Positions 121-6,442 of a DNA stretch of 64,000 nt are shown here, one piece after another; position 1 is the first letter of the stretch; every line of letters starts with the position of its first letter. Position numbers and translations under genes: made by a program. Source of the DNA: Prosthecobacter debontii. GTDB taxonomy: Bacteria; Verrucomicrobiota; Verrucomicrobiia; Verrucomicrobiales; Akkermansiaceae. The notes beneath the pieces are model-generated. The model had not been told where the DNA came from, did no database searches, and saw only the letters and a list, made by a program, of their open reading frames with translations. The stretch spans positions 28,755 through 92,754 of the forward strand of contig CAMAXN010000005.1 in NCBI GenBank assembly GCA_945862245.1. Reading direction: 5' to 3'.

Positions 121-917
121 GTGTCTTGCCTCTCACTCATCATCAAAAAGGGACACGAATGCCAGACTAAGCATACTGCAATTGTGAGTCGCATTTATGA
201 TCGAAATCGCGATGCAACCATCGCCTTATCGCGTGGGTATGCCGAACAGCTCAATGCCTCGCTAATGGAGCGGACGAAGCCGGAAAAACTGCAAAAAGCC
301 CAAGCGTTCCAAGCAAGTCTAGATGAGTTACGCACAGTGGTGACGATCTACCGCCAGCTTGATAAAGCGGACGTTGAGATCACAGCATGGGTCAAGGAGA
401 TCCTCGAATATATGCCGGAAAGACAGCAACCCGCAGGTGGTGCTCTGCCTAAACTGGGCACGAAGGTAAAGGAGGCTGGTGAAGAAAGCAAAATAGAGCT
501 CTCCAAAGATGTAACCATTACCTTCTGCTGGTGCCCTGCGGGGAAATTCACGATGGGGAGCACACAATCCGAAGCCGATCGAAGCGGTGATGAGAATCAA
601 GTAAAGGTGACTTTAAGCGAAGGGTTCTGGATGGCAAAGACCGAGGTAACCCAAACGCAGTGGCAGGCAGTGATGGGGGAAAATCCAAGCCATTTCCAAG
701 GTGCCAATGACCCGTGGAAAAAGTCAGTTGGGACGATGCCCAAGAGTCCCTAACGACGCTTAACACCATCGTAGGGGACTCAGATGGAGGGAAGATGGTT
801 CTGCCGACGGAAGCGCAGTGCGAGTATGCGGCACGGGCTGGGGAAACAGGTACCTATGCAGGCGGCACGGTGGGTGAGGTGGCTTGGTATAAGCGGAGTT
901 CTAAATCCGTGGATTAG
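121..917 (+). pseudogene. Formylglycine-generating-enzyme/SUMF1-like protein, frameshifted and 3'-truncated
   Basis: ORF 121..753 has CPAGKFTMGSTQSEADR..GFWMAKTEVTQTQWQAVMGENPSHFQGANDP; homology continues in another frame (VEKVSWDDAQ..LPTEAQCEYAARAGETGTYAGGTVGEVAWY) and stops at 917. Restoring one G near 713 (CCG[G]TGG) gives NDPVEKVSWDDAQ. Confidence 0.8.
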
Positions 918-2229: not shown

Positions 2230-3126
2230 TTACTTTAAGGGCGGCGGGTATTGCTTGAGATACACGGCGGCCGCTTCGCGGAGTTTTCCCGCAATTTCAG
2301 GATGATCGGCGATGAGATTCTTTTCTTCGAGCGGGTCATCGATAAGATGGAAAAGTGATTCTTCGATCTGTGAGGCTTTTGTTTCCCCGCGTTCGCCATC
2401 TTGGCCGGGACTTACGACATCGCGGTATTCGTGCGGGTGGTGGAGTTTCCATTTCCCGTCGGATGTCAACGCGGCTTCGAGGGTGTTATCGGTCGAAATG
2501 AAGTAGTGATCATGCGGGTTTTCTGCGCCCTCATCGCCGCTCATAAGAGGCCAAAGGTTTTTGCCATCAGTGGAGTTTTCCTTGAGTGAAATGCCTGCCA
2601 AGGCGGCAAGAGTGGGCCAGAGATCGATCGAGCCAAAGGCGCGGTCGTTGACCGTGCCGGGCTTGAGTCGCGCGGGGTATTTCACGGTGAGCGCGGAACG
2701 GACGCCGCCCTCGAAGCTAGTGCCCTTGTGCTCGCGGAAGGGGGTTTTCCCGGCGTGGTTGCCGAACTCCTCCCATGGCCCGTTGTCGGTGGTAAAAAGG
2801 AAGATGGTATCGTTCTCGATGCCGGTCTCGCGGAGCGCGGCCATGATTTCACCCACCGACCAGTCGATCTCCATCATGACCAGCGCGTTTTTCAGGTAAG
2901 CACCGTTCGCGGCTATGGAATCCATCACGGGTGTTTCCGCGAATTGGTGGCCTAGAAAACTCATCGCGTCGAAGCGGTGGTCATCGGAGAGGATGTAGAC
3001 AACGTTGCGCGGCTTCACGCCGGAAATGGTATCGGGCACTACTTCCTTCGGCGCGGGACTGACGGCGGCTAGCGCGGGCAAGATTAGAACCATGTTAATG
3101 AGGGAGTGACTCGCTTTTCTATACAT
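2230..3126 (-). CDS. Sulfatase-family protein with apparent in-frame deletion of the catalytic core
   Basis: N-terminal PRNVVYILSDDHRFDAMSFLGHQFAETPVMDSIAANGAYLKNALV is joined directly to MEIDWSVGEIMAALRETGIENDTIFLFTTDNGPWEEFGNHAGK. No C/S-x-P-S-R segment. Start taken at MYRKASHS; track ORF extends to 3180. Confidence 0.8.
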   Translation of the reverse strand: MYRKASHSLINMVLILPALAAVSPAPKEVVPDTISGVKPRNVVYILSDDHRFDAMSFLGHQFAETPVMDSIAANGAYLKNALVMMEIDWSVGEIMAALRETGIENDTIFLFTTDNGPWEEFGNHAGKTPFREHKGTSFEGGVRSALTVKYPARLKPGTVNDRAFGSIDLWPTLAALAGISLKENSTDGKNLWPLMSGDEGAENPHDHYFISTDNTLEAALTSDGKWKLHHPHEYRDVVSPGQDGERGETKASQIEESLFHLIDDPLEEKNLIADHPEIAGKLREAAAVYLKQYPPPLK

Positions 3127-3282
3127 ATAATCTTTCGTAGTTTTAAAAATGAAAAGTAACGCTCGAATACAGTCGTTCATTCGAATATAGCATTCTATAT
3201 TTGCATAACATCACACGATGGGCTTACTTAAATAGAAAGAAATTATTTTGCCTCGTTTCACCTTGATTCATTGTCTCGGTCT

Positions 3283-5061
3283 ATGTCCCAGAATCTAACA
3301 TGGCCGCCCTCGCCGGCGGTAATGCAGTCTCTTCTTCCCGCGTTCGATTTCACCACCGTGGTCACTTCGAGCGATTTCGGTATAGTTTTTTTTGCCAACC
3401 AGAAATCCCTTGATCGGCAGGTTGCGCTGAAGGCTTTCTCCCCTGCACTCGCCGCCATTCCCAATTTCCGCAAGGACTTCGAAACATCCTCGAAGCTCGC
3501 CGCCAGGCTCCGCCACACGAATCTAATCGGCATTCTCGATTCCGGCGAGGTGGGCGGCATGCTCTACCTCGTGATGGAGTTCGTGCCGGGGAAATCCCTT
3601 GCCTGTTCTACGCAAGGGCAAATCATTGAGTTCGGGCAGTCACTGATGATTGTCGATGCGATTTGCGAGGGTCTCGCCCATGCCCACGACTCTGAACTCG
3701 TCCACGGCCACCTCGACAATCTCAGCATCCTGCTCAATCAGAACGGGGTTCCGAAGATCGGAAATTTCGGTTTGGGGCGTGCCGTGCACACCGATCCGCA
3801 AGTGGATGTGCCCTTGCATTTCACGGCGCCTGAGGTGTTGGAGAATCCCTCTGCATTTACCAAGGCATCCGATGTATATTCCGTCGCCACGCTGTTTTAC
3901 GAAATGGTTACCGGTAAGCTTTTCTCGCCCCATGCACCACCGCTATCTAGTGTTTGTGGTTGCAGTGCAGCGGTGGATTCCGTGCTGAAACGGGGAACCG
4001 ATCCCGATCCGCTCGAGCGTTATTCAGATGCCGGTGCCTTCCAGTTTGCCCTCAAGCAAGCGGTCGGTGCTAAAAAAGTACCTGTAGGCGCCTCCGCCAC
4101 TGCAAGACCGTCTCCTGTTTCGACTCTCGCCAGGCCACTGCCCAAAGCCGGCTTCGATTCGAAGCTGATAGTCAAGATCACCATCATTATCGTTCTACTC
4201 ATCGCGATTTTCATAACATGGGAAATTCGGGAAAAAGCCCTAACTAATTATGAAAGGGAGAAGCAGGAGATCCTTGCCAAGCAGAAGTTCGCGAAGGACC
4301 AAGCCGTCGCGCAAATGGAGGAGATGAAAGCTCTTGAGAAACCGCTGAGGCCCGTCCGTCCAGATCGCATACCTAAAGAAAGTGGGATAGAGGAGCGTCC
4401 AGCCGATTCCCTCGAACGCTTGCCCTCCGCCCCGGCGATGCCTAGGTCGGAGGGTGAAAAGGCACCCAAGCTCGACTCTACCTTACCTCACGGAAATACC
4501 AATGTCACAGGACTCGATAGCAATGTAGCAGGAGTCGATAGCAAGGTCGCGGAACTCGATAGTAATGTCGCGGAACTCGATAGCAAGGTCGCGGAACTCG
4601 ATAGCAAGGTCGCGGAACTCCTCCTTGCGGCTGCCGAAAAACGCGAAAATGAGCATAACGACAACATCAAGAGTCTGCATTGGGCTCTCGGTTCCTACAT
4701 CAGGAATCTCAGTAGTGGTGGCAAGGCGCAGTTCGAACCCAGCGTCAACGCCATTTTAAAACTTGTGGAAGACAATCGCCTGAAGATCGAAGAGATAAAG
4801 GATATGGGGAAGAAGGATGTTTTCAGCCTCTCGAATGAGATGCTGAAACTCGGCAATTACCACAGTGACAAACAGATCCAGATCGATACTCAGGCGGAGG
4901 CTCGCATCGGCAAAATCCGCGATGCCTACGTCGCCAAAGTCACGGTCATTAAGGACGAGGCTGCAGCCGCGGGACAGGTTAAAGTCGCCGCAGATATCCA
5001 GAAGCTCATCAAGGACGCCGAGGATCTCGATTCTTGGGCCGAGTCCTTCGGCGGGAAGTAG
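3283..5061 (+). CDS. Protein-kinase-like (predicted pseudokinase) membrane protein with heptad-repeat/coiled-coil C-terminus
   Basis: Kinase-like fold motifs: VALKAF, HTNLIGILDSGEVGGMLYLVMEFVPG, VHGHLDNLSILL, KIGNFGLG, FTAPEVL, ASDVYSVATLFYEMVTGKLF. TM helix VKITIIIVLLIAIFITW, then (LDSxVAx) repeats. ATG at 3283; track ORF begins at an upstream TTG. Confidence 0.8.
   Translation: MSQNLTWPPSPAVMQSLLPAFDFTTVVTSSDFGIVFFANQKSLDRQVALKAFSPALAAIPNFRKDFETSSKLAARLRHTNLIGILDSGEVGGMLYLVMEFVPGKSLACSTQGQIIEFGQSLMIVDAICEGLAHAHDSELVHGHLDNLSILLNQNGVPKIGNFGLGRAVHTDPQVDVPLHFTAPEVLENPSAFTKASDVYSVATLFYEMVTGKLFSPHAPPLSSVCGCSAAVDSVLKRGTDPDPLERYSDAGAFQFALKQAVGAKKVPVGASATARPSPVSTLARPLPKAGFDSKLIVKITIIIVLLIAIFITWEIREKALTNYEREKQEILAKQKFAKDQAVAQMEEMKALEKPLRPVRPDRIPKESGIEERPADSLERLPSAPAMPRSEGEKAPKLDSTLPHGNTNVTGLDSNVAGVDSKVAELDSNVAELDSKVAELDSKVAELLLAAAEKRENEHNDNIKSLHWALGSYIRNLSSGGKAQFEPSVNAILKLVEDNRLKIEEIKDMGKKDVFSLSNEMLKLGNYHSDKQIQIDTQAEARIGKIRDAYVAKVTVIKDEAAAAGQVKVAADIQKLIKDAEDLDSWAESFGGK
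4510..4620 (+). repeat. 21-bp tandem repeat (5 full units plus partial) encoding heptads (ELDSKVA)
   Basis: Units GGACTCGATAGCAATGTAGCA / GGAGTCGATAGCAAGGTCGCG / GAACTCGATAGTAATGTCGCG / GAACTCGATAGCAAGGTCGCG x2 / GAACTC. Confidence 0.95.
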
Positions 5062-5314: not shown

Positions 5315-6442
5315 GTGAGTTTAGAGGAAACTGAAGCATGGAACACAGCGGATTACCCGCCGATGAGCCATCCTACGGCGGATCCTGCGGTGAACGCCGC
5401 GGTGGCGCGGGCGGCTGGGCTGGATGTCACCGAATCGGCAGGCGCGCGGATCCTTGAGATCGGCTGTGGGGAAGGGCACCACTTGCTCTCGCTGGCGAAC
5501 CGCTGGCCGGGCGCCGTGTGCATTGGGCTGGATGCTTTCCCTAAGGCGATCCACCGCGCTCGCAGCCGCGCGCAGCGGGCAGGTTTGAAAAATGTGAGGT
5601 TGTGCGAGGCGAGGCTCTCGGATTTCGAGCCGGACGCGCCCTTCGATTTCATCATCGCGCATGGATTTTTCTCCTGGGTGCCAGATGAGGTGAAGGTGGG
5701 GCTGATGGATTTCATTGCGAAACACCTCGCGCCGCACGGGGTGGCGGTGGTTAGCTTCAATGTGGCGGCGGGTTGGAAGGAGCGGATGATCGTCGTAGAG
5801 AAAGCGCGGGCAATTATGAACGCCGGTGCGGAAGATGTGATGCAGGCGCTGGCACTTTATCAAACGGCAGCGGAGGAGGGGAGGGAGCGGGAAATCATCG
5901 ATGACATGCTCGCGAAAGGCACGGCGGTGCTCGCCCACGATGACTTTGCGCCGGTTATGGACGCGTGGTCGCTCGGGGCTTTCGTGAAACTAGCGGAGTC
6001 GCACGGGTTGGCGTGGCTCGGGGATTCGGTCTCGGGCGTAAAGGGCAACGATGCGGCGGACAACATGGCGGGCAGGACGTTCCGCAGCGAGTTACTTTGC
6101 CGAGGGGGTGCGGTGTTAGGAGAGGCAAAGAAGCCGGTTGGAGAGGTGTCTCTCCATGAGAAGACGAGGGTAGATGAAGAAGCCGGCCAGAGACGTGGCT
6201 GTCGATTATTGGATTTCCCGAAACTCGATGAATGGCGCATGACCTGCGCACGCGAGGCTTTGCCCTTGCCGGATGCGGAGCTTAAGCCCTGCGTGTTCAC
6301 CTTTCCTCAACTCAAGGTGCTCATCGCGATGGACGGCACCCGCTCCGTCTATGAACTCTCACGCCACGCGAAGGAAGTGGCGCCGGAGTTGGATTTCGTA
6401 CCGTGGCTGAAGCACGTGGCCGGGCGCGGACTGCTGAGCTGA
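5315..6442 (+). CDS. Class I SAM-dependent methyltransferase with methyltransferase regulatory domain
   Basis: ARILEIGCGEGHHLLSLANRWPGAVCIGLDAF motif I; HGFFSWVP; C-terminal regulatory-like region ending FPQLKVLIAMDGTRSVYEL. Confidence 0.8.
   Translation: MSLEETEAWNTADYPPMSHPTADPAVNAAVARAAGLDVTESAGARILEIGCGEGHHLLSLANRWPGAVCIGLDAFPKAIHRARSRAQRAGLKNVRLCEARLSDFEPDAPFDFIIAHGFFSWVPDEVKVGLMDFIAKHLAPHGVAVVSFNVAAGWKERMIVVEKARAIMNAGAEDVMQALALYQTAAEEGREREIIDDMLAKGTAVLAHDDFAPVMDAWSLGAFVKLAESHGLAWLGDSVSGVKGNDAADNMAGRTFRSELLCRGGAVLGEAKKPVGEVSLHEKTRVDEEAGQRRGCRLLDFPKLDEWRMTCAREALPLPDAELKPCVFTFPQLKVLIAMDGTRSVYELSRHAKEVAPELDFVPWLKHVAGRGLLS

Follow-up and report, generated by a model that had tools for sequence, protein, structure and literature searches.

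Organization of the locus and domain structure of the encoded protein

The window, a stretch of 64,000 nucleotides of Prosthecobacter debontii DNA, carries an intact open reading frame at 3283-5058 (+), which encodes a protein of 592 amino acids and is followed by a stop codon at 5059-5061. The ATG at 3283 is backed as the start by the alignment of orthologs. The features of the gene, all on the plus strand, are as follows.

3283..5061, +: receptor pseudokinase gene, 592 aa, stop included (intact ORF; Pkinase E = 1.4e-24; member of a clade of 17)
3340..4068, +: kinase-fold domain, residues ~20-262 (AlphaFold2, mostly pLDDT about 90; Foldseek to PknI/PknA/PknB)
3409..3411, +: Leu43, column of PknB Leu33 on the N-lobe dimer surface (Leu in 17/17 pseudokinases)
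3430..3432, +: Lys50, the VAIK lysine (kept in 17/17)
3487..3489, +: Ser69, replacing the alphaC Glu (Glu in 0/17)
3538..3540, +: Asp86, column of PknB Asp76 on the N-lobe dimer surface (Asp in 16/17)
3703..3726, +: HGHLDNLS, replacing HRDxKPxN (motif reading, ortholog comparison)
3763..3771, +: NFG, replacing DFG (motif reading, ortholog comparison)
3826..3834, +: APE motif (kept in 17/17)
4165..4221, +: single transmembrane (TM) helix, residues ~295-313 (hydropathy; helix 293-351 in the model)
4420..4511, +: position of two C-type-lectin-like domains (~270 aa) of the orthologs, absent in the window copy (alignment)
4512..4620, +: 21-bp tandem repeat, 5.2 copies, heptads (L/V)DS(K/N)VAE (TRF)
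4618..5058, +: conserved C-terminal helical domain (alignments; model)

The original prediction described a kinase-like scaffold devoid of the HRD and DFG Asp, the catalytic-loop Lys and Asn and an intact Gly loop, followed by one TM helix, heptads and a helical domain, and every one of these elements was recovered. VALKAF lies at 3421-3438, HGH at 3703-3711, NFG at 3763-3771 and TAPEVL at 3823-3840; the catalytic-loop Lys and Asn are replaced by Asp145 and Ser148, and the Gly loop is degenerate. The loss of the alphaC Glu (Ser69), the loss of the GTP of the P+1 region and the absence of two ancestral lectin-like domains had been overlooked. Pkinase (PF00069) was matched with 87.4 bits against a cut-off of 31.7 (E = 1.4e-24), and the membership in the kinase fold was borne out by the AlphaFold2 model (overall mean pLDDT 79, confident kinase fold at ~20-262, long helices at 293-351 and 417-562) and by Foldseek, which returned PknI, PknA and PknB (target TM-scores of about 0.8). 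Among proteins of solved structure, bacterial Ser/Thr kinases came closest in sequence, with alignments that span residues ~26-263. The hydropathy profile has its peak at residues 295-313 (mean Kyte-Doolittle value 2.85) and contains one TM segment only. The column numbering refers to a sequence that we take to be that of PknB, and its Lys40, Glu59, HRD and DFG land at the expected places.

The HRD Asp, the catalytic Lys and the DFG Asp of an active Hanks-type Ser/Thr kinase are missing, their places being taken in HGH, Asp145 and NFG. A PASTA receptor kinase (NF033483) was rejected, the match being limited to the kinase region and reaching 126.5 bits against a cut-off of 450. The PADLOC matches to anti-phage defense systems (PD-T4-6, mad6) cover the kinase region only and score higher on an active paralog; because they are restricted to this domain and also match that paralog, they are uninformative.

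Relatives and the loss of catalysis

Pkinase was matched four times in the window genome (2.57 Mb): by the window gene, by two kinases in which HRD and DFG are present (L001 and L002) and by a fourth that combines HRD with DIG (L004). Each of the 59 genomes in the search for relatives had kinase homologs, and a close homolog at E<=1e-60 was found in 27 of the 73 genomes of the genus. A search of genome contigs for related loci gave only remote kinases of other groups. According to the motif reading of the genus homologs, 17 genes in 16 species are without the canonical catalytic residues, whereas the homologs in the other eleven species retain the HRD and DFG Asp (as HSD in G087 and G019). HGH and NFG are common to the seven nearest genes (those of the window, G005, G008, G060, G069, G092 and G093); the other members have HGN, HGY, HGH, HGA or HGD, with NFG, NFA or GFS, and HGD is retained in two of them, G020 and G088.

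A tree of 89 kinase domains plus an outgroup unites the 17 genes in a single clade (support 100/100, recovered in 100% of the 200 bootstrap trees), which persisted after 35 family-level kinases had been added. Its sister group (93/90) includes the active lectin-type kinases. The tree thus indicates that catalysis was lost once, as a single change, long ago. The lectin-type kinases sampled outside the genus are almost all HRD/DFG and often in tandem, the exceptions being G283, where a kinase with HGR/NFG neighbors an active one, and G285, with HQA/DFG plus HRD/NFG. The G283 kinase is placed elsewhere in the free tree, but since the AU test does not reject its joining the clade (p=0.378), a second origin is only possible. 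Degenerate receptor kinases in related genomes were seen at L198:8152-10056 (HGR/NFG), L195:4895-7474 (HQA/DFG), L195:888-3953 (HRD/NFG) and L111:14646-15491 (HGD with SFG). Catalysis has possibly been lost repeatedly in the tandem receptor-kinase arrays of related genomes.

Selection on the kinase domain

The pairwise NG86 dN/dS of the kinase domain was 0.11-0.26 among the seven closest orthologs (253 codons) and 0.15-0.21 in the pairs that include the window gene, the latter values being rough because dS is 0.9-1.4; both ranges point to purifying selection. Of the 85 columns conserved among 86 active kinases, the dead kinases retain 36 at a frequency of 90% or more and 30 at a frequency below one half. 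The lost columns center on the active site, including most of the Gly-loop glycines and the GTP of the P+1 region. In the pseudokinase clade the alphaC Glu, the catalytic Lys and the DFG Asp are found in 0/17, the HRD Asp in 2/17 and the catalytic Asn in 7/17, and the HRD-Arg column is Gly in 17/17 and the DFG-Asp column Asn in 16/17. The kept columns include the VAIK Lys, APE, the alphaF Asp and those of PknB Leu33 and Asp76.

The canonical catalytic residues are therefore lost and the loss is conserved across orthologs, as expected of a pseudokinase. Homologs with intact HRD and DFG do exist in the sister clade, yet the loss extends to all of the sixteen nearest genes, and strain-specific decay as the whole account is ruled out by these orthologs together with dN/dS. 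The substitutions are beyond chance, being common to relatives in 16 species. The catalytically dead, receptor-like scaffold that had been proposed is well supported by the monophyletic clade of 17, the purifying selection and the confident kinase fold, and the protein would be inactive in vitro.

Lectin-like domains and heptads

Judging from the orthologs, the ancestral form is a lectin-type receptor kinase composed of a kinase domain, a TM helix, two C-type-lectin-like domains and a helical domain. In the orthologs, Lectin_C matches lie between the TM helix and the helical domain, usually with only the second domain scoring, and the model of the G092 protein contains two alpha/beta modules at 394-501 and 533-649. 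According to the alignment, both domains are present in six orthologs and missing from the window copy only, and they were not found elsewhere in the window genome. Without two such domains after the TM helix, the window copy is a lectin-type receptor kinase by descent only.

The 21-bp array of five heptads occurs in the window copy only, at the site of the lectin domains of the six orthologs, and seems to have arisen by recent tandem expansion of KVAELDAKV, the start of the conserved helical domain. The heptads were rejected as a conserved signaling device on the ground that the array was found in this copy alone. Since lectin loss and heptad expansion are both confined to it, heptad oligomerization would be strain specific, and signaling by coiled-coil oligomerization, as first envisaged, is weak as a general mechanism. 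The absence of the lectin domains or the repeat number may also be an assembly error.

Genomic context

Lectin-type kinases, dead or live, have in common an Rce1-like protease and a neighbor that, from our own reading of its sequence, is presumably ThiL-like (clusters cl1 and cl2). In seven genomes the gene of the Rce1-like (CPBP) intramembrane protease sits next to the kinase gene, whether this is dead or live (cl1 loci, among them L121:5120-7539). None of the 73 genus genomes contains dead and live lectin-type kinases together (E<=1e-60), and the tree of an active partner kinase splits the same two species groups. These three observations (shared neighbors, no genome with both forms and the partner tree) suggest that the dead and live forms represent one locus, at which catalysis was lost in place in one sub-clade.

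The context has changed around the subclade of the window gene itself, where a methyltransferase gene (window 5315-6442, +) adjoins the pseudokinase gene in the window genome (G000), G092 and G069. On the other side, at 2230-3180 (-), there is a sulfatase-like ORF of 316 aa whose match is split into two stretches and which apparently lacks the middle part; a possible ortholog (L109:15680-17272) has 530 aa, and the window ORF looks internally deleted. An FGE/SUMF1-like ORF at 121-753 (+) is matched at profile positions 7-57 of 255 only, after a helical stretch, and appears truncated. Elsewhere, a bacterial-globin gene lies on the opposite strand between two tandem receptor kinases (L121:10347-10754; L123:4088-4465).

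The candidate partner is an active kinase-TM-helical gene with HRD and DFG. It directly follows the dead gene, in the same orientation, in G086, G020, G091, G088 and G082, and the live lectin-type gene in G021, G018 and G026. Partner homologs occur in 72 of the 73 genus genomes and in 13/13 genomes checked directly. The copy of the window genome (L001) is on contig 17, unlinked to the pseudokinase gene, and the two genes are also unlinked in several other genomes, including those of the six closest orthologs. The dead gene is missing from most of the genomes that carry the partner, so that the pseudokinase would act as a modulator and not as an obligate subunit.

Discussion

Bacterial receptor kinases are allosterically activated by N-lobe dimerization (PMC3601408), and the MviN pseudokinase, which keeps the same Leu/Asp pair, forms a back-to-back dimer (PMC12599244). 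An active site that is lost and a dimer face that is kept beside a live paralog fit a dead modulator of a live kinase, and we give about even chances to the reading that the gene product is a non-catalytic allosteric partner of a related active receptor kinase. Such a role is probable because 16 species share the loss of catalysis and yet conserve the remainder of the domain. The ancestor would have been a kinase-TM-lectin receptor kinase in tandem with a second, active kinase-TM-helical receptor kinase. In the descendant, the cytoplasmic kinase-fold domain would no longer transfer phosphate and would most likely form a heteromer with its counterpart in the active paralog through the conserved PknB-type N-lobe surface, so that the partner activity may be raised, lowered or localized according to the ligand of the extracytoplasmic part. 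In the window strain, where the lectin sensor is gone, the TM and helical/coiled-coil contacts would be left, and the partner role could fall to the unlinked active kinase of contig 17. Against this model, most genomes have the partner but no pseudokinase, the two genes lie apart in the window genome and in several others, and the VAIK Lys, kept in 17/17, makes nucleotide binding possible. The Leu33 and Asp76 columns are conserved in active kinases too, and their conservation could serve folding or homodimers instead.

The dead domain might also homodimerize and recruit a non-kinase protein, with no active-kinase partner. Precedents for such a stand-alone scaffold are EssB/YukC and MviN (PMC12599244), the dimer-surface columns are kept, and the window gene and its six closest orthologs are unlinked from an active kinase. 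We nevertheless consider this unlikely, given the receptor kinase of the same superfamily directly downstream in five genomes and the descent of the dead gene from one half of such a tandem pair. Nucleotide binding is possible, considering the VAIK Lys in 17/17, and an altered enzyme with residual or different chemistry, such as the AMPylation of SelO or the glutamylation of SidJ, could be read from the fixed new states, without scatter, of the HRD-Arg and DFG-Asp columns and from the HGD of two members. However, the alphaC Glu and the DFG Asp are entirely lost, the Gly-loop glycines are mostly gone and the catalytic Asn is kept in fewer than half; moreover, the catalytic position varies among His, Asn, Ala, Asp and Tyr, unlike a conserved new active site, and we regard this explanation as very improbable.

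It is also improbable that the window copy is a decaying relic of a functional family, an allele on its way out. Its private deletion of the lectin pair, the truncated look of the neighboring FGE-like and sulfatase-like genes and the lack of a pseudokinase copy in most genus genomes at E<=1e-60 agree with decay, whereas the reading frame is intact, dN/dS against the orthologs is low, and the 13 private changes of its kinase domain fall inside the 9-18 of relatives of similar depth. An allosteric partner of an active kinase is the most likely role.

Bacterial pseudokinases are largely unexplored experimentally (PMC12599244). Here, two sister groups within a genus seem to carry the dead and the live form at a common locus, next to the same candidate partner, and the role of a pseudokinase can therefore be asked with natural dead and live alleles. 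The single loss on the tree also comes with a residue-by-residue record of what selection retained after catalysis ended.

The families covered in a 2025 review of bacterial pseudokinases are ActPs1-3, GLW, CP1, DYD and DLHK, plus EssB/YukC, SidJ and SelO; neither "Verrucomicrobi" nor "lectin" occurs in its text (PMC12599244). We found no described bacterial pseudokinase family to match, and no published description in Verrucomicrobia or Akkermansiaceae in the open-licence literature. Published motifs and architecture set four of the families apart: ActPs3 (MviN) needs VALT and a deleted or replaced DFG (PMC12599244, table 1), and the window protein has VALK and NFG; GLW needs the beta3 Lys to be replaced in an LLLL/W motif, and Lys50 is kept; CP1 (fused COG3899) and DLHK (fused helicase-type domains) have by definition no TM helix, and the window protein has one at 295-313 and no such domain. 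ActPs1, ActPs2 and DYD are characterized by their motif logos and indels, and of these features the activation-loop extension of ~250 aa of ActPs2 is absent from the window protein.

MviN is likewise a membrane protein with a dead kinase domain and the same Leu/Asp dimer pair (PMC12599244), but it has VALT for VAIK and no DFG, is fused to a multi-span peptidoglycan-synthesis protein and is actinobacterial. EssB/YukC is also a single-TM pseudokinase with an extracytoplasmic helical part; it differs in its LDMR, YTFVLAPD and TRG motifs (PMC12599244, table 1), its function in type VIIb secretion and the lack of a tandem active-kinase origin. The receptor Ser/Thr kinases of the PknB/PknA/PknI type are alike in fold, membrane topology and the N-lobe Leu/Asp columns, and differ in their intact catalytic residues and in their sensors, which are of the PASTA or another type and take the place of the lectin-like and helical domains.

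With HER3 and the JAK-type pseudokinases, which are eukaryotic and unrelated, there is a likeness of proposed working only, a dead domain acting on a live paralogous kinase. We tentatively suggest, as somewhat less than an even prospect, a bacterial analog of the HER3 type, in which a lectin-domain receptor pseudokinase would allosterically control the neighboring active kinase, one member of a tandem pair having lost its catalysis in place. The nearest counterparts are the active lectin-type receptor kinases of the sister clade (G021, G018, G026, G036 and G075), which have the same architecture and the same neighbors but intact HRD, catalytic Lys, alphaC Glu and DFG; the window copy differs from them also by being without the lectin-like domains.
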